Source of the DNA: Demequina lignilytica
Lineage (GTDB): Bacteria; Actinomycetota; Actinomycetes; Actinomycetales; Demequinaceae
Reading direction: 5' to 3'
Length of the DNA: 64,000 nt
Assembly (NCBI RefSeq): GCF_030418305.1
Contig: NZ_JAUHPX010000003.1
Coordinates: 62,001-126,000 of the forward strand
The notes below the pieces were generated by a model, which searched no databases, was not told the DNA's origin, and saw only the letters and a list, made by a program, of their open reading frames with translations. The position numbers and the translations under genes are program-made. Positions 32,296 through 40,634 of the stretch are shown piece after piece; position 1 is the first letter of the stretch, and each line of letters opens with the position of its first letter.

Positions 32296-33378
32296 ATGAT
32301 GCCTCAGGCGACCGTGGACGGGGTGAGGGAGTTCGTCGCGGCGAACCTCCCCGAGGTGCAGTGCGCCCTCGACGACCACGTCACCCAGGCGATGGGAGAG
32401 CTGCCCTCGGCCGGCGCGGACTATCGCAACCTGTGGGCGTCGATCGGCCAGCAGTACTCCGGCGGCAAGAACCTCCGCCCGTCGCTCACCCTGGCCGCCT
32501 ACGCCGGCCTGGGAGGGGACGATGCGGAGGCCGTGGTCCCCGTCGCGGCCGCCATGGAGATGCTCCACACGGCGATGCTCGTCCACGACGACATCCTCGA
32601 CGGAGACGAGGTACGCCGAGGCCGCCCCAACGTCGCCGGCACCCGCCGCCGCGCCCTGGAGGACAGCCGGCTCACGCCCGCCCAGGTGGACGCCCACGTC
32701 CTGTCCGCCGCGCTGCTCGGCGGCGACCTGGCCCTCGCATCGTCCTACGACCTGATCTCCCGGGCGAAGCTGCCCGCGCACCACCGCATCGCCTGCCTCG
32801 ACCTGATCACGCGCGCCATCCGCACCACCATCGCGGGCGAGCTGCTGGACATGTACGGGGACATGACGGCCCCGAAGGACGCCAACAGCCTGCTGGTCGC
32901 CGAGCTCAAGACGGCGACCTACTCGTGCGTGGTCCCCCTCCTCGCGGGCGCCCAGCTCGCGGGCGGCGACCCCACGATGGTCGGGCACCTCGAGAAGCTC
33001 GGGGCGTCGCTGGGCCTGAGCTTCCAGCTGGTGGACGACGACCTGGGGGTGTTCGGCGACCCGGAGGTCACCGGCAAGTCCGTGCTGTCCGACCTGCGGT
33101 CCGGCAAGCGCACCGAGCTGCTGCGGCTGGGCTTCCAGCAGGCGGACGACGCGGGTCAGGCCCTGCTCGCCGCCGCCGTGGGCAACCCCGACCTCGACGA
33201 GGACTGGGCGGGCCGTGTGCGCGACGTGCTGATCGAGTGCGGCGCCCGCGACCGGGCGCTCAAGGTGGCGCGGCAGCACGCCCGCATGGCGCGCAGGATC
33301 GCCTACGAGCGGATCCCGGCGCCCCTGTCCGGCTACCTGATCGACCTCATCGACGAGATGGAGGGCCGCACGTCATGA
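32296..33378 (+). CDS. crtE: Geranylgeranyl diphosphate synthase
   Basis: 360 residues. The first aspartate-rich motif DDILDGDEVRRGRP and the second DDDLGVFGD are the metal/diphosphate sites of trans-prenyl synthases. GKNLRPSLTLAAYAGL is the IPP-binding region. It supplies C20 precursor to CrtB. ATG 32296 is chosen over GTG 32293 because it is 6 nt from TATGCT. It overlaps crtB by ATGA, beginning a chain of overlaps through crtYf. Confidence 0.94.
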   Translation: MMPQATVDGVREFVAANLPEVQCALDDHVTQAMGELPSAGADYRNLWASIGQQYSGGKNLRPSLTLAAYAGLGGDDAEAVVPVAAAMEMLHTAMLVHDDILDGDEVRRGRPNVAGTRRRALEDSRLTPAQVDAHVLSAALLGGDLALASSYDLISRAKLPAHHRIACLDLITRAIRTTIAGELLDMYGDMTAPKDANSLLVAELKTATYSCVVPLLAGAQLAGGDPTMVGHLEKLGASLGLSFQLVDDDLGVFGDPEVTGKSVLSDLRSGKRTELLRLGFQQADDAGQALLAAAVGNPDLDEDWAGRVRDVLIECGARDRALKVARQHARMARRIAYERIPAPLSGYLIDLIDEMEGRTS

Positions 33379-34271
33379 GCCAGGCCCGGCGACGGGTCCA
33401 CCTCGACAACGCGACCTCGCTCGCCCTCTACGACGAGGCCGCGCGCGCCGCCGCGGCGCAGGTGATCGCGCGCTACTCCACCTCCTTCGGGCTCGGCACG
33501 CGCCTGCTGGCGCGCGCCATGCGCCACCACATCGAGGCCGTCTACGCGATGGTGCGGGTCGCCGACGAGATCGTCGACACGTACCGGGGCGACGACGCGG
33601 GCGACCTGCTCGACGCCTTCGCGGACGAGGTGCACGCCGCCATGGAGCGCGGCTTCTCCGCCGACCTGGTCGCGCACGCCTTCGCGACCACGGCGCGCGA
33701 GGTCGGGATCGCGCGGGCGCAGACCGAGCCGTTCTTCGCGTCGATGCGGATGGACCTGGCGACGGCGGAGCACGACGCGGAGTCGCTCGCGACGTACATC
33801 TACGGCTCCGCCGAGGTCGTGGGGGAGATGTGCCTCGCCGTGTTCGTCAACACCGGCCACGGTCCCCGGCCCCTCGAGCCGCGGGTGAGCGAGGGCGCGC
33901 GACGGCTCGGCGCCGCGTATCAGAAGGTGAACTTCCTGCGGGATCTGGGCTCCGACGTGGAGCAGCTGGGCCGCGCCTACTTCCCCGGCGTGACGGCGGA
34001 ATCCCTGACGGACGCCCGGCTCGCCGAGCTCGTGGCCGACTGCCGGGCGGACATGGATGCGGCCCGCGCGTGCCTGCCCGACCTGCCCCGGCGCGCGCGC
34101 GTCGCGGTCGCGACCACCCTCGACATCTACGACCGCCTGCTCGCGCAGATCGCCTCCACGCCTGCGGCGGAACTGGCTGGACGGAGGATCCGGGTGGCGA
34201 ACCCGGTGAAGCTCGGCCTCGCCGCACGGAACGTGGTGCCCTTCGGGTCGGCGGCGGGGGCGCGGGCGTGA
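33375..34271 (+). CDS. crtB: Phytoene synthase
   Basis: 298 residues of the squalene/phytoene synthase family. It joins two GGPP molecules to phytoene. Motifs: YSTSFGLGTRLLA, VRVADEIVDTYRGDD (Asp-rich), EVVGEMCLAVF and YQKVNFLRDLGSDVEQLGR (second Asp-rich motif). ATG overlaps the crtE stop; its own TGA overlaps the crtI GTG. Confidence 0.95.
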   Translation: MSQARRRVHLDNATSLALYDEAARAAAAQVIARYSTSFGLGTRLLARAMRHHIEAVYAMVRVADEIVDTYRGDDAGDLLDAFADEVHAAMERGFSADLVAHAFATTAREVGIARAQTEPFFASMRMDLATAEHDAESLATYIYGSAEVVGEMCLAVFVNTGHGPRPLEPRVSEGARRLGAAYQKVNFLRDLGSDVEQLGRAYFPGVTAESLTDARLAELVADCRADMDAARACLPDLPRRARVAVATTLDIYDRLLAQIASTPAAELAGRRIRVANPVKLGLAARNVVPFGSAAGARA

Positions 34272-35926
34272 GCGGCGCGCGGACGGGAGCGCCCCGCATC
34301 GTCGTGATCGGCGGGGGAGTCGCGGGCCTGGCGACCGCGGGCCTGCTCGCGCGCGGGGGCGCGCAGGTGACCCTGCTCGAGCGCAACGCGACGCTCGGCG
34401 GCCGCTCGGGGCGCCTCACGGTCGCCGGCCACACGTTCGACACCGGCCCCTCGTGGTACCTCATGCCCGAGGCCTTCGAGCAGTGGTTCGCGCTCATGGG
34501 CCGCCGCGTCGAGGACCACCTCGACCTCATCGACCTCGACCCGCGCTACCGGGTGTTCTTCGAGGGCGAGGATCCGTGGGGCGCGGCCGAGAGCCTCGAC
34601 GTGTCCGCCGACCCCGAGTCCAACTGGGAGACCTTCGAGGAGCTCAGCCCCGGCGACGGCGCCGCCATGCGCAGGTATGCGGAGGATGCGGGCGAGCTCT
34701 ACCGGATCGCGCTCGACCGCTTCCTCTACACGACCTTCGCCAGGCCCCTCGGGGTGGTCGACCGCGACGTGCTGCGGCGGCTCCCCCGGCTCGCCTCGCT
34801 GCTGACCCGGTCGCTCGGCGCGCGCATCGCCGCGAAGGTGCGCGACCCGCGGCTGCGGCAGATCCTGGGCTTCCACGCGGTGTTCCTCGGCTCGTCGCCG
34901 TCGCGCGCGCCATCGCTGTTCTCGCTCATGAGCCACCTCGACCTCACCGACGGCGTCCGCTACCCGCGGGGCGGCATGTACGCGGTGATCGAGGCGCTGG
35001 CGGCGATCGCCCGGGAGGAGGGCGCCGCGGTGCGCACCTCCTCGCCCGTGGCGCGGATCGTGGTGGACGATGCGGGATTCGCCTCCGGCGTCGAGCTCGC
35101 CTCCGGCGAGCTGGTGCCCGCCGACGCGGTGGTCTCCGCGGCGGATCTCCATCACACGGAGACCGCCCTGGTGCCCGAGGAGTGGCGCACGCATCCCGAG
35201 CGGTCGTGGCGGCGGCGCGAGCCCGGCGTCAGCGCGCTGCTCGCGATGGTCGAGGTGGACGGCAAGGTGGACGAGCTCGCGCACCACAGCCTGTTCTTCA
35301 CGGGCGACTGGGACGCCAACTTCGAGGCGATCCTCGGGAGGCGGCTGCCGCCCGTGCCGGCCTCCGTCTACGTCTCCCGGGTGGGCGCGACCGATCCGTC
35401 CGTGTCTGCGGAGGGCAAGGACTCGCTGTTCCTCCTGGTCCCGTTCCCCGCGGATCCGTCGCTGGGATCCACGGCCGAGTCCCGGGCGGAGCTGATGGGG
35501 GTGGCCCGCCGCTACCTCGCGCAGATCGGGGCCTGGGCCGGGATCGAGGACCTGCCCGGCCGGTCGACCGTGCTGAAGGTCACCACCCCCGCCGACTTCG
35601 CCGAGGGGCTCGGCGCCTGGCAGGGCGGCGCCCTCGGGCTCGAGCACACGCTGCTCCAGTCGGCGATGTTCCGCCCCGCGAACGTGTCCTCCAAGGTCGC
35701 GAACCTGCTGTACGCGGGCGCGTCCACCGTCCCCGGCATCGGCGTCCCGCTGTGCCTCATCTCCGCGGAGCTGGTCGCCAAGCGCCTGCTCGGCGCCGTC
35801 GACGTCGGGCCGCTCCCCACGCCCGCGCCCGAGGGCTTCCTGAGCCTCTCGAAGGATCAGGGCGTGCTCGGCAACCTGGCCCGACGGGCCGGATCCTGCC
35901 AGCTGCGCGAGGCGCGCGGCGAATGA
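34268..35926 (+). CDS. crtI: Phytoene desaturase
   Basis: 552 residues. CrtI-type FAD desaturase taking phytoene to lycopene. The FAD motif is IVVIGGGVAGLATAGLLA, followed by ERNATLGGRSGRL and DTGPSWYLMPEAFEQWF; the C-terminal carotenoid signature is LLYAGASTVPGIGVPLCLIS. GTG start by GTGA overlap with crtB; stop overlaps the next ATG. Confidence 0.95.
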   Translation: MSGARTGAPRIVVIGGGVAGLATAGLLARGGAQVTLLERNATLGGRSGRLTVAGHTFDTGPSWYLMPEAFEQWFALMGRRVEDHLDLIDLDPRYRVFFEGEDPWGAAESLDVSADPESNWETFEELSPGDGAAMRRYAEDAGELYRIALDRFLYTTFARPLGVVDRDVLRRLPRLASLLTRSLGARIAAKVRDPRLRQILGFHAVFLGSSPSRAPSLFSLMSHLDLTDGVRYPRGGMYAVIEALAAIAREEGAAVRTSSPVARIVVDDAGFASGVELASGELVPADAVVSAADLHHTETALVPEEWRTHPERSWRRREPGVSALLAMVEVDGKVDELAHHSLFFTGDWDANFEAILGRRLPPVPASVYVSRVGATDPSVSAEGKDSLFLLVPFPADPSLGSTAESRAELMGVARRYLAQIGAWAGIEDLPGRSTVLKVTTPADFAEGLGAWQGGALGLEHTLLQSAMFRPANVSSKVANLLYAGASTVPGIGVPLCLISAELVAKRLLGAVDVGPLPTPAPEGFLSLSKDQGVLGNLARRAGSCQLREARGE

Positions 35927-36258
35927 GCCAGTTCGCCTACCTGGCCGCGTTGGTCGTGTCGATCGGCGGCCTGGCCGTGCTGGACCTCCGGTACCGGATC
36001 GCGCTCTTCGACCAGCCGCGACGCACGCTGCTGACGGTCGGGCTCGCCGCGGCCGCCTTCCTCGCCTGGGACGCCGCCGGCGTGGGCCTGGGCATCTTCT
36101 TCATCGGCGGCGCGCCCTACCTGACGGGCGTGGTGCTCGCGCCCGAGGTGCCGCTCGAGGAGCTGTTCTTCCTGATCCTGCTTGTGTACCAGACGCTGCT
36201 GCTGTGGCGCTGGCTCGACCGGCGCGCGCGGGCGGCGACGCGCGAGGGCGCGTCATGA
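35923..36258 (+). CDS. crtYe: C50 carotenoid cyclase subunit (CrtYe-like)
   Basis: 111 residues, three membrane helices. The signature PEVPLEELFFLILLVYQTL is that of heterodimeric lycopene-cyclase domain proteins (CrtYc/CrtYe/LbtA). Together with the next gene it should cyclise the C50 chain made by CrtEb (as for decaprenoxanthin or sarcinaxanthin). Which ring type forms cannot be told from sequence. ATGA overlaps on both sides. Confidence 0.9.
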   Translation: MSQFAYLAALVVSIGGLAVLDLRYRIALFDQPRRTLLTVGLAAAAFLAWDAAGVGLGIFFIGGAPYLTGVVLAPEVPLEELFFLILLVYQTLLLWRWLDRRARAATREGAS

Positions 36259-36608
36259 CGTACGTGCTGCTCTCCCTGGGCGTGCTCGCCCTGATCGGCG
36301 CGGTCACCGTGCCGACCCTGCGCCGCATGCCGCAGCGGCCGCTCCTGCTCACCGGCGCCGTGCTGATCGTGATGACCGCGATCTTCGACAACGTGATCGT
36401 CGGCCTGGACATCGTCGGCTACGACCCGGCGCGGATCTCCGGCATCCGCGTGGGGAAGGCGCCTCTCGAGGACTTCTCGTACACACTGGGAGCCGTGATG
36501 ATGGTGCCCGCGCTCTGGACCTGGCTGGGCCCGCGCCACCCGCACCCCTCCACCCCAGCGCCGACCTCGACCCCCGACCCCTCCCGTCGGGACACTCAGT
36601 CCTCATGA
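36255..36608 (+). CDS. crtYf: C50 carotenoid cyclase subunit (CrtYf-like)
   Basis: 117 residues, three membrane helices with IFDNVIVGLDIVGYDP and GIRVGKAPLEDFSYTLGAV, the partner signature of CrtYd/CrtYf/LbtB proteins. The C-terminal tail (TSTPDPSRRDTQSS) is Pro/Ser-rich and its last codons lie in the first copy of a 20-bp direct repeat, so the terminus may have been reshaped by the duplication. Confidence 0.9.
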   Translation: MTYVLLSLGVLALIGAVTVPTLRRMPQRPLLLTGAVLIVMTAIFDNVIVGLDIVGYDPARISGIRVGKAPLEDFSYTLGAVMMVPALWTWLGPRHPHPSTPAPTSTPDPSRRDTQSS

Positions 36609-36649
36609 ATCGCCGGATCCTCGCCCCCCGGGACACTCAGTCCTCATGA
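36589..36649 (+). repeat. 20-bp direct repeat at 41-bp spacing between crtYf and crtEb
   Basis: GGGACACTCAGTCCTCATGA occurs at 36589-36608 and, identical, at 36630-36649. Each copy ends in an ATGA stop/start junction. The inter-copy sequence (CGGATCCTCGCCCCCC) resembles the one in the pair at 50.9 kb. Confidence 0.9.
36605..36649 (+). CDS. Possible 14-codon coupling ORF between crtYf and crtEb
   Basis: ATG 36605 overlaps the crtYf stop (ATGA), reads MNRRILAPRDTQSS and stops at TGA 36647-36649, which overlaps the crtEb ATG (ATGA). Its last six residues RDTQSS copy the crtYf C-terminus because of the 20-bp repeat. It would keep ribosome coupling across a 41-bp insertion. The peptide itself probably has no function. 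Confidence 0.35.
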   Translation: MNRRILAPRDTQSS

Positions 36650-37530
36650 GCACCCTCGCCAGCATCGTCAAGGCCTCGAGGCCCGTCTCCTGGATCAACA
36701 CCGCCTTCCCGTTCGCCGCCGGCTACCTCATGGTGACCCGCGAGATCGATGCGGTGCTGGTCGTCGGCACGCTGTTCTTCCTGATCCCCTACAACCTGCT
36801 GATGTACGGGATCAACGACGTCTTCGACTACGAGTCCGACCTGGCCAACCCGCGCAAGGGCGGCATCGAGGGCGACGTGATCCGCGACCGCGAGCGCGCG
36901 CGGTCCGTCCACCGCGCCATCCTGTGGGCGTGCGCCGTCACGGTGCTCCCGCCGATGGTGTGGCTCCTGCTCCAGGGCGGCGTCGCGGCAGCCGTCACCC
37001 TGGTGCTGGTGGTCTTCGGCGTGATCGCGTACTCGGCCCCCGGGCTGCGGTTCAAGGAGAAGCCGTTCCTCGACTCCCTCACCTCGGCGCTGCACTTCTG
37101 CGGGCCGCTGCTCTACGCGCTGGTGATCGCGGGCGCGAGCCTGACCGCGCCCGACACCTGGCCCATCTGGGTGGCGTTCATCCTGTGGGGCATGGCCAGC
37201 CACGCCTTCGGCGCGGTGCAGGACGTGCGCGCGGACCGCGAGGGCGGCATCGGCTCGGTCGCCACGGTCATCGGTGCCCGCGCGACGGTGTGGTTCGCGC
37301 TCGCCCTGTACGCCGCATCGTCCCTGTTGCTGCTCCTGCTGCCGTGGCCCGGGACGCTCGCGGCCGTGCTGCCCCTCGCCTACGTGGCGTCCGTGGCGCG
37401 CTTCACGCGCGTCACCGACGCCACCTGCGAGGACGCGAACCGCGGCTGGCGCACCTTCCTCTGGCTCAACCAGCCCGTGGGCTTCGCGGTGACGATGCTG
37501 CTGATCGTCGCGTGGAACGGCTGGCTCTAG
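36646..37530 (+). CDS. crtEb: Lycopene elongase (UbiA-type prenyltransferase)
   Basis: 294 residues, eight or nine membrane helices. The UbiA Asp-rich motif is NDVFDYESD, with the second DVRADREGGIGSVAT. CrtEb/LbtB-type enzymes add two C5 units to lycopene giving C50 carotenoids such as flavuxanthin. It closes the operon and converges with trpG with 9 bp between, without a visible terminator. Confidence 0.93.
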   Translation: MSTLASIVKASRPVSWINTAFPFAAGYLMVTREIDAVLVVGTLFFLIPYNLLMYGINDVFDYESDLANPRKGGIEGDVIRDRERARSVHRAILWACAVTVLPPMVWLLLQGGVAAAVTLVLVVFGVIAYSAPGLRFKEKPFLDSLTSALHFCGPLLYALVIAGASLTAPDTWPIWVAFILWGMASHAFGAVQDVRADREGGIGSVATVIGARATVWFALALYAASSLLLLLLPWPGTLAAVLPLAYVASVARFTRVTDATCEDANRGWRTFLWLNQPVGFAVTMLLIVAWNGWL

Positions 37531-37539
37531 CCCGCGAGG

Positions 37540-38166
37540 CTACGTGCGGATGAGCGGGCTCAGCCCCGCCGACCGCCCCTCCGGGTCCGGCATCCCGCAC
37601 ACCTCGAGCCAGTTGGCTAGCAGGCGGTGGCCGCCCTCGGTGAGCACCGACTCCGGGTGGAACTGCACCCCGTGCAGCGGCAGCTCCCTGTGCTGCAGGC
37701 CCATGATGATGCCGTTGGCGGTGGTCGCGGTGACCGCGAGCTCGTCGGGCACGGTCGGGTTCTCGACGGCGAGCGAGTGGTACCGCGTGGCGGTGAACGG
37801 TGACGGCAGGCCGTCCATCACCGAGGCGTCCTCGTGCGTCACCAGCGAGGTCTTGCCGTGCATGAGCTCCGGGGCGTGCGACACGACCCCCCCGAACACC
37901 TCGGCGAGCGCCTGATGGCCCAGGCAGATCCCGAGCATCGGGATCCCCGCCGCCGCGCACTCGCGGATCACGTCCATCGAGGAGCCCGCCTCGGCCGGCG
38001 TGCCCGGGCCGGGGGAGATGAGGACCCCGTCGTAGGAGGCGACGTCGCCGGCGTCCGCCACCGCATCGTTCCTCACGACCACGGTCTCCGCGCCCATCTG
38101 GCGCAGGTAGCCCACGATCGTGTAGACGAACGAGTCGTAGTTGTCGACCACCAGGATCCTGGTCAT
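37540..38166 (-). CDS. trpG: Class I glutamine amidotransferase, TrpG/PabA-like
   Basis: 208 residues. VVDNYDSFVYTIVGYL opens the protein; the catalytic triad is Cys81 in GICLGHQ with His and Glu in GVQFHPESV. It supplies ammonia for anthranilate or 4-amino-4-deoxychorismate synthesis. In actinobacteria this copy lies by convention between pknB and crgA, not in a trp operon, so it is more likely PabA/dual. ATG 38166 overlaps the small membrane protein stop (ATGA). Confidence 0.93.
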   Translation of the reverse strand: MTRILVVDNYDSFVYTIVGYLRQMGAETVVVRNDAVADAGDVASYDGVLISPGPGTPAEAGSSMDVIRECAAAGIPMLGICLGHQALAEVFGGVVSHAPELMHGKTSLVTHEDASVMDGLPSPFTATRYHSLAVENPTVPDELAVTATTANGIIMGLQHRELPLHGVQFHPESVLTEGGHRLLANWLEVCGMPDPEGRSAGLSPLIRT

Positions 38167-39206: not shown

Positions 39207-39260
39207 TGAGGGCAGACATCGACGCCCGCACCGGCGGGCCCGCAGTGCAACGGAGTGAAA

Positions 39261-39509
39261 GTGGCCGTCTCGAAGAAGCGCGACACCAAGGCGTACAAGG
39301 TCCCCCGCAACCTGGGCAAGCCCAAGTCGGACAACCCCAAGTGGCTGCTGCCGGTCGCGCTGACGGCGCTGGCGCTGGGCCCGGTGTGGATCGTCGTCTA
39401 CTACGTGTCCAAGGCGCAGTACCCCATCCCCGGCATCTACGACTGGAACCTCGGCGTGGGCTTCGTGTTCATGGCCACGGGCATGGTGCTGCTGACCCGC
39501 TGGAAGTAG
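39261..39509 (+). CDS. crgA: Cell division protein CrgA
   Basis: 82 residues. SKKRDTKAYKVPRNLGKPK, then two membrane helices (about 30-50 and 63-79) with WNLGVGFVFMATGMVLLTRWK at the end, which is diagnostic for CrgA. CrgA coordinates FtsZ, FtsQ and PBPs at the septum. GTG 39261 sits behind GGAG with a 5-nt spacer; a GTG two codons upstream is possible. It is convergent with the rhomboid gene across a 339-bp repeat-rich gap. Confidence 0.94.
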   Translation: MAVSKKRDTKAYKVPRNLGKPKSDNPKWLLPVALTALALGPVWIVVYYVSKAQYPIPGIYDWNLGVGFVFMATGMVLLTRWK

Positions 39510-39513
39510 GAAT

Positions 39514-39633
39514 CACACCCGTGTAGTTCTCCACAGGGTCATCCCCAGCGGTGGAGAAGTACACGGGTGTAGTTCTCCACCGCTGTGCACAACGGTGGGG
39601 ATAACTACACCGGTGTCATTCACACCTGTGGAG
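39514..39633. repeat. Array of ACACC(C/G)GTGTA-GTTCTCCAC repeats
   Basis: Four related units of about 21 bp: plus-strand at 39515 (ACACCCGTGTAGTTCTCCAC), minus-strand at 39551-39570, plus-strand at 39561 (ACACGGGTGTAGTTCTCCAC) and minus-strand at 39596-39616 (with GTTATCCCCAC). The core ACAC-SS-GTGT is palindromic, so the second and third units share it. A partial fifth unit (CACACCTGTGGAG) ends at 39633. It lies just after crgA in a convergent gap. Confidence 0.85.
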
Positions 39634-39717
39634 CACGGTGGGGACGATGCTGCGGCGGGCCATCGCGCCCGAGCCGCACCCGCATCGTCCGACCGCTTCA
39701 GCCACGCCCCTTCCGCG

Positions 39718-39775
39718 CGAAATGGCGGATCGGTGCCCAAAACTGATCGGTTTCGGGCACTGATCCGCCATTTCG
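39718..39775. repeat. 21-bp inverted repeat between crgA and rhomboid
   Basis: Left arm 39718-39738 and right arm 39755-39775 match at 20 of 21 positions (core ATGGCGGATC / GATCCGCCAT, then GGTGCCC / GGGCACT); the mismatch would be G-U in RNA. The 16-nt loop contains a nested AAAC/GTTT dyad and TGATCGG. No U-run. The rest of the 339-bp gap (39510-39848) holds the repeat array above and three copies of GGACGATGC; no coding sequence is seen in it. Confidence 0.85.
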
Positions 39776-39848
39776 GGGGAAGTGCGGGCGCGCGGGAGGT
39801 GCGGGGGCGCGGCGGGACGATGCGGGGCGCAGGGGCCGCGCCCGGCGG

Positions 39849-40634
39849 TCAGCGCGAGCGCGCCGGCTTGCGCTCGACCCAGCGCAGCATCGCCAGCATC
39901 GTGAGCGCGCCGCCGACGGCTCCGCCGAGGTGGCCTTCCCACGAGATGCCGGGCACCACGAACCCGAGCACCAGCCACAGGCCGGCGGTGGTGATGAGCG
40001 AGCGGTAGTCCAGCCTCAGCTTGAACAGCACCACCGCGTAGCCGGCGATGAGGCCGAAGATCGCGCCCGAGGCGCCACCATGGATCCCGCCGCCCGAGAT
40101 CAGCATCACGGATGCGGAGCCGCCGATCATCGACGCGAAGTACAGCCCCGCATACCGGAGCCGGCCCATCAGCGGCTCGAGCTGGGTGCCGAACTGGAAC
40201 AGCACCAGCATGTTCATGCCCAGGTGCAGGAGCCCGAAGTGCAGGAAGCCCGAGCTGATCCACCGGTACCACTCGTCGCCGCCGCCCAGGATGAACTCCT
40301 GGTAGACGGTGGGATTGGGGATCAGCGCCCAGTCGACGCGCCACTGCCCGGTACCCAGCACGTAGGTCCCGTACAGGTAGGCGATCACGTTGAGCGCGAT
40401 GAGCCCGTACGTCACGTACGGCGTGCCGAACTGGGACGTGAAGCCGAGTCGGTTCACCAGCGGTCGCGCCTGCGCCTTGGCCTCCTGCACGCAGTCGACG
40501 CACTGGATCCCGACCGAGGCCGGGCGCTGGCACTCGGGGCACGTCGGCCGTCCGCAGCGCTGGCAGCGCACGTAGGAGACGCGGTCCGGGTGCCGCGGGC
40601 AGATGGGCGCCGCGGCCCCGGGCTGCTGCGTCAT
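39849..40634 (-). CDS. Rhomboid family intramembrane serine protease
   Basis: 261 residues. An N-terminal zinc-ribbon-like segment with CxxC pairs (CQRCGRPTCPEC, CVDC) is followed by a six-helix rhomboid domain: WYRWISSGFLHFGLLHLGMN, catalytic Ser in GGASGAIFG and His in SWEGHLGGAVGG. It cleaves membrane proteins; substrates unknown. It is the second gene of an operon with the cyclophilin (7-bp gap). Confidence 0.93.
   Translation of the reverse strand: MTQQPGAAAPICPRHPDRVSYVRCQRCGRPTCPECQRPASVGIQCVDCVQEAKAQARPLVNRLGFTSQFGTPYVTYGLIALNVIAYLYGTYVLGTGQWRVDWALIPNPTVYQEFILGGGDEWYRWISSGFLHFGLLHLGMNMLVLFQFGTQLEPLMGRLRYAGLYFASMIGGSASVMLISGGGIHGGASGAIFGLIAGYAVVLFKLRLDYRSLITTAGLWLVLGFVVPGISWEGHLGGAVGGALTMLAMLRWVERKPARSR

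Follow-up and report, generated by a model that had tools for sequence, protein, structure and literature searches.

A putative origin-proximal DnaA control element beside crgA in Demequina and its counterparts in many Actinomycetota

What function could a strictly spaced array of short inverted repeats have between two genes that end towards each other, close to the replication origin? In the window, a 64,000-nucleotide stretch of the Demequina lignilytica genome, such an array lies in the gap between crgA and a rhomboid gene. An initial annotation made from the sequence alone had described it as four 21-bp units in plus, minus, plus, minus order with tails near the DnaA box. Pattern search recovered the four units in that order and in that gap, with a length of 20 letters and not 21 bp: the pattern ACACCSGTGTASTTMTCCMC occurs without mismatch at 39515-39534 (+), 39551-39570 (-), and 39597-39616 (-) and with one mismatch at 39561-39580 (+). 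Units 2 and 3 overlap and have the palindrome 39561-39570 in common, as had been noticed, so that the natural description is one of three palindromes. The array is better described as a 10-bp palindrome (dyad) of the form ACACNNGTGT that occurs three times, at 39515, 39561, and 39607, each copy starting exactly 46 bp after the one before; DnaA-box-like 9-mers stand between the dyads, 12 bp inside each of them (Table 1).

Table 1. Features of the crgA-rhomboid gap and its flanking genes, in window positions
Feature	Position	Strand	Details	Basis
crgA	39255..39509	+	cell division protein (PF06781), usual neighbor of the element	
Dyad 1	39515..39524	.	ACACCCGTGT	sequence and spacing analysis
DnaA-box-like 9-mer	39527..39535	+	TTCTCCACA, 12 bp from dyad 1 start, 1 mismatch	box scan
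DnaA-box-like 9-mer	39539..39547	+	TCATCCCCA, 24 bp from dyad 1 start, 2 mismatches	box scan
DnaA-box-like 9-mer	39550..39558	-	TTCTCCACC, mirrored, 12 bp from dyad 2, 2 mismatches	box scan
Dyad 2	39561..39570	.	ACACGGGTGT, core common to units 2 and 3 of the initial annotation	
DnaA-box-like 9-mer	39573..39581	+	TTCTCCACC, 12 bp from dyad 2 start, 2 mismatches	box scan
DnaA-box-like 9-mer	39584..39592	-	TTGTGCACA, 1 mismatch	box scan
DnaA-box-like 9-mer	39596..39604	-	TTATCCCCA, mirrored, 12 bp from dyad 3, 1 mismatch	box scan
Dyad 3	39607..39616	.	ACACCGGTGT	spacing analysis
DnaA-box-like 9-mer	39616..39624	+	TCATTCACA, 2 mismatches	box scan
Weak box-like 9-mer	39627..39635	-	TGCTCCACA, 2 mismatches	box scan
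Rhomboid family membrane protease gene (PF01694)	39849..40634	-		

The tails that had been likened to the DnaA box are indeed close to it; they are TTCTCCACA (39527), TTCTCCACC (39550 on the minus and 39573 on the plus strand), and TTATCCCCA (39596, minus), and TTGTGCACA (39584, minus) is an additional box with one mismatch. The box-like 9-mers start at 39527, 39539, and 39550 in the first interval and at 39573, 39584, and 39596 in the second, 11 to 12 bp apart within each, and compared with TTATCCACA or TTGTCCACA three of the six have one mismatch and three have two. With weights of our own choosing (3, 2, and 1 for 0, 1, and 2 mismatches to either sequence), a score of 13 per 130 bp for the array compares with 4 for the best place elsewhere in the window, and the array is the window's strongest DnaA-box cluster. 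The box scan found no perfect DnaA box in the array or anywhere in the 64-kb window. Exact TTRTCCACA, which has no copy in the array, is not enriched genome-wide either (5 matches versus 6 for the reversed control in genome G000 and 6 versus 4 in G022). The place 39616..39624 reads, by eye, TTATTCACA or TCATTCACA in many Demequina.

In the genome (2.90 Mb searched, 18 contigs), the 20-mer was found within three mismatches at the four array places and at two other sites, with 2 and 3 mismatches, and the reversed pattern was not found at all. Absence from close relatives together with many unrelated chromosomal copies had been named as the outcome that would speak against a functional site, and the opposite was seen: palindrome and box are present in the crgA gap in 43 of 43 Demequina loci (the 44th genome, G040, was left out, its crgA search having given none), and the listed places of GTGTAGTTNTCCMC, which is present in 40 of the 44 genomes with three reversed-control matches overall, all lie in the crgA gap except two that read as coding by eye. 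Exact ACAYNNRTGT follows crgA in 40/43 loci; the scan took both strands, which doubles total matches and leaves numbers of loci unaffected. Of 51 spacings between neighboring dyads, 45 are 46 or 47 bp (the others being 48 bp four times, 43 bp once, and 49 bp once), and at that stringency 12 loci have three dyads, 27 have two, and four have one. We examined 52 intervals of 46 to 47 bp, chosen to hold TCCMC or TTCCAC, for box-like 9-mers, defined as TTNTCCMCA with at most two mismatches. In 52/52 one starts 12 bp from the left dyad, and 46 intervals have a mirrored one at the same distance from the right dyad; with two mismatches allowed on both strands the intervals hold three (24 intervals), four (25 intervals), or five (3 intervals) of them. 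Dyads and boxes placed so regularly speak for a protein complex.

crgA and the rhomboid gene converge on the array, as the initial annotation stated, and they do so in 43/43 Demequina loci. A convergent gap with inverted repeats able to fold could instead hold a bidirectional transcription terminator or a structured RNA, and among 62 pairs of adjacent dyads, 9 are complementary over their full 10-mers, where permutation gives 4.7 (3% of permutations). The informative palindrome centers, however, are complementary in 16 of the 62 pairs against 15.3 by permutation, a terminator-like site was not found at the locus, no Rfam match reached the gathering score (the four with E values up to 1 are all microRNA families), and the element, by eye, is kept at two loci, L144 and L153, where the next gene is co-directional. 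We therefore disfavor an RNA hairpin or terminator and consider it highly improbable. The best Rfam match (E 0.0018, far below gathering) falls on a separate palindrome at 39710-39782.

The gap also holds, between the array and the rhomboid gene, a palindrome of about 54 bp (AAATGGCGGATC...GATCCGCCATTT) at 39720-39773. Its 12-mer has 21 copies in the genome within one mismatch (control, 0), including six inverted pairs 42 bp apart, of which this site is one, and the palindrome is, judging by these copies, a dispersed REP-like or terminator-like repeat. By eye, the same gap in two other Demequina loci (L021 and L034) has different hairpin arms of the AAATGG...CCATTT type, possibly from a related repeat family. 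Judged by eye, the open reading frames at 32361-37553, upstream of crgA, look like a carotenoid cluster (phytoene synthase, desaturase, lycopene cyclase pieces, and a UbiA-type prenyltransferase).

The proximity to oriC that the initial annotation had assumed was borne out. In this genome, dnaA lies about 30 kb from the array, and in the 35 of 44 Demequina genomes that have both genes on one contig the distance is 17 to 66 kb, with a median of 33 kb. The array does not read as the origin itself, since it is about 30 kb from dnaA and not in the dnaA-dnaN gap, and the organism's own stretch after dnaA has boxes and no exact dyad. In that stretch, the presumed oriC, one TTATCCACA is perfect, and the other boxes before the next gene all have two mismatches. 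Exact ACAYNNRTGT within 1.5 kb of dnaA was found in none of 20 Demequina loci (exact form only, two of the loci being shortened). The dyad is therefore not an ordinary oriC motif and points either to a special arrangement of DnaA or to the site of a partner protein. Over its length the organism's DnaA aligns with DnaA proteins of solved structure, 3pvp being the match of its DNA-binding part (E 3.2e-28), and by sequence it is an ordinary DnaA.

We investigated the distribution of the element beyond Demequina. The core was found by pattern search in 126 of 297 genomes of the order, Demequina included, with 8 reversed-control matches. Many of the order-wide core loci that were fetched lie at crgA or the rhomboid gene, several with two copies 44 to 46 bp apart, and others are coding or unrelated. 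We then used a composite, ACAN4TGT followed by TCCMC within 10 bp, in the 500 bp after crgA. The samples were 76 loci from other genera of the order, in which 295 genomes had crgA, 61 loci of other orders of the class (out of 140), and 40 loci of other classes of the phylum (out of 47). In these non-random samples, made of best-scoring and hand-picked loci at about one per genus with some repeats, the composite was present in 37 of the 76 order loci (39 without), 31 of the 61 class loci (30 without), and 24 of the 40 loci of other classes (16 without). Loci L247 to L251, re-listed or in-class, were viewed and left out of the counts. Sixty dinucleotide shuffles gave mean composite counts of 0.12 (Demequina), 0.28 (order), 0.23 (class), and 0.03 (other classes), with at most 2 loci per set, and 500-bp controls upstream of crgA gave 1/119. 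The stricter ACAYNNRTGT alone was present in 29/76, 25/61, and 13/40 loci, and at least two TTNTCCMC boxes in 37/76, 35/61, and 21/40, respectively. A looser box, TTNTNCMC, also matches upstream of crgA in 38/43 Demequina loci, TTNTCCMC doing so in 1/43; our guess is that the loose matches are a conserved coding match. The flank profile of the dyad was built from exact-core dyads only (38/43 Demequina, 25/76 order, and 18/61 class loci), so that conservation of the core in it follows from the choice of dyads and the flanks alone are informative.

The form that has one dyad with boxes occurs widely; repeated dyads are a minority outside Demequina and no general feature. Two dyads 44 to 48 bp apart and at most 400 bp from crgA were found in 3/76 order loci, 2/61 class loci (both weak by eye), and 5/40 loci of other classes. 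Spacing of 44 to 46 bp was seen in other families of the order (L062, L070, L071, L075, L078, L080, and L082), and four loci of other classes, L253, L259, L266, and L271, follow the Demequina plan at 47, 45, 48, and 46 bp, respectively. In L077, L080, and L081, three of the genomes that lack the composite after crgA, the array lies by the rhomboid gene with crgA 6.6 to 13.8 kb away. Five loci that were taken as Streptomyces (L159, L160, L163, L247, and L248) have several DnaA boxes after crgA without the exact ACAC-GTGT dyad, which L163 has in a form with one mismatch. One of the published Streptomyces DnaA-box clusters may possibly be the crgA gap, and it would then differ from the array in the lack of an exact dyad. 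The gene that follows the element also differs by lineage, being a rhomboid gene or, by eye, an Rv0010c-like, thiolase-like, or FmdB-like one; since the element stays while this gene changes, it is not linked to any particular gene downstream.

The nearest characterized relative comes from mycobacteria. We take Rv0011c to be crgA and 2mmu, 'Cell division protein CrgA', to be the M. tuberculosis protein; the CrgA of the mycobacterium-like locus L153 matches 2mmu with E 4.8e-47. According to the portions of PMC7738170 on which we draw, the Rv0010c-Rv0011c gap of M. tuberculosis is among five regions strongly bound by DnaA in vitro (IDAP-seq, confirmed by gel shift), and ChIP-seq showed DnaA binding at the equivalent site of M. 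smegmatis. In the same account, the recurrent clinical changes in the gap fall, with one exception, in a palindrome that lies 65 bp upstream of Rv0010c; the variants have longer cells and an unchanged initiation rate and resemble dnaA mutants (PMC7738170). In both mycobacterium-like loci, L144 and L153, the ATG of the next gene comes 65 bp after the end of a 20-bp dyad and 70 bp after the end of its 10-bp core. From what PMC7738170 describes, the M. tuberculosis site is like the array in its position at the crgA 3' end, its palindrome form, and its cluster of DnaA-box-like sequences, and the array likewise has the position after crgA, a small palindrome core, and a box-like cluster, with no perfect box in the window. 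The two mycobacterium-like loci differ in having one exact dyad each, whereas most Demequina loci have two or three, spaced by 46 bp, and their gap is convergent. Our conclusion is that the array of Demequina and its mycobacterial counterpart are probably one and the same ancestral element. The proposal of the initial annotation that a DnaA-related site lies here near oriC thus gains support from conservation, location, and DnaA binding at the mycobacterial equivalent (PMC7738170), from which we infer binding in Demequina.

The dyads could alternatively be operators of a dedicated dimeric regulator that acts mainly on the transcription of crgA, the rhomboid gene, or whichever gene follows, with the DnaA boxes secondary. 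The absence of the exact dyad near dnaA in 20/20 loci agrees with this, and so does the mycobacterial site: it lies upstream of Rv0010c and is bound at 8 uM by HigA2, a toxin-antitoxin regulator, and Rv0010c is up in a higA2 mutant, as reported in the sections of PMC11205783 considered here. These sections give the HigA2 motif as ATCAC(N)4-7GTGAT and its Rv0010c site as the DnaA site (PMC11205783), which fits ATCACACNNGTGTGAT. However, both Demequina genes end at the array, so that it holds no promoter of theirs, and the sigma-70-type promoter scan found 0, in line with the initial annotation, which had thought ordinary promoter operators unlikely in a convergent gap. The change of downstream gene between lineages while the element stays also speaks against a regulator operator, which we consider unlikely overall. 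HigA2 as the cause of such wide conservation is doubtful, we reason, for a toxin-antitoxin regulator.

WhiA and BldD were also considered. The BldD consensus is nTnACnCWGnGTnAn, and the TNACNC halves of a BldD operator have a 1-bp center, while that of the array is 2 bp. The MtrA motif, as given in the part of PMC6265350 that treats it, is a direct repeat, unlike the palindrome of the array.

A site for segregation, chromosome architecture, or membrane anchoring near the origin, with DnaA as a passenger, would suit the distance of 17 to 66 kb from dnaA in 35 Demequina genomes, the division gene next door, and the rigid 46-bp period. The parS motif is unlike the array motif, and the proven binder at the equivalent mycobacterial site is DnaA, which makes such a site decidedly improbable. 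We give hardly any credence to a site-specific recombination site, which had also been suggested and for which inverted repeats around a core would speak: no result of the analysis points to it, fixed-spacing dyads with box-like 9-mers are, in our reasoning, unlike the arm pair of a recombinase, and DnaA binds the counterpart.

Taken together, the array is quite likely an origin-proximal, non-coding DnaA control element. It would represent, in Demequina, a site that many Actinomycetota have at the crgA 3' end. The available text of PMC5742627 describes comparable elements elsewhere. Escherichia coli datA is a non-coding DnaA-box cluster that is duplicated soon after initiation, has its essential boxes in the same direction, and works with IHF (PMC5742627); it shares with the array the non-coding cluster and the placement for early duplication, but the array boxes are inverted around dyads, so that on this feature the array does not class with datA. 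DARS1 and DARS2 of E. coli resemble it as non-coding clusters of few boxes, the DARS core being three DnaA boxes, and in DARS2 the spacing to the sites of partner proteins matters; a dyad of the array's kind does not appear in their description in that text (PMC5742627). Clusters outside oriC in Streptomyces coelicolor and Bacillus subtilis are said there to repress untimely initiation (PMC5742627). By analogy, the most likely role of the array would be datA- or DARS-like. The accessible portions of PMC9579286 and PMC12584712 add no mechanism for the element.

In the mechanism that we propose, dyads 46 bp apart would anchor a nucleoprotein complex of fixed geometry, with DnaA on boxes that start some 12 and 24 bp inward from each dyad. 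Lying about 30 kb from dnaA, the locus would be replicated early after initiation, and DnaA at the array boxes might be held back or converted, coupling DnaA activity to the cell cycle. The dyad itself could be a site for a dimeric partner or for DnaA bound in an unusual, inverted manner. PMC13270200, in the part concerned, reports that Actinomycetes conserve a dimer of DnaA domain I, and, as a speculation, such a dimer could fit the inverted pair. As to the direction of the effect, the mycobacterial mutants resemble reduced DnaA function and not over-initiation, from which we infer, leaning only slightly, a positive, DARS-like or coordinating role over plain titration. A more specific proposal, to which we give somewhat less than even weight, is that one ancestral DnaA control element persists next to crgA across much of Actinomycetota as a dyad with phased boxes, doubled or tripled at about 46 bp in some lineages, and that either a second, dimeric partner or a DnaA dimer specific to Actinomycetes recognizes the dyad.

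The M. tuberculosis site is reported, in the part of PMC7738170 that discusses it, without counterparts in other bacteria. Among the matches listed, judged by titles and the starts of abstracts and with subscription literature thinly covered, no description of the wider distribution, the dyad-box module, or the multi-dyad form was found outside mycobacteria. The site type is already known in mycobacteria, and these three aspects seem to be new. The M. tuberculosis crgA site thereby gains counterparts in other orders and in some other classes, with an element consensus of about GAATNACACNNGTGTNATTC and a box close behind, which in Demequina becomes a 46-bp module. If the more specific proposal is true, the element would be a main DnaA regulator outside oriC in the phylum, and the tuberculosis locus would be one case of a general mechanism.
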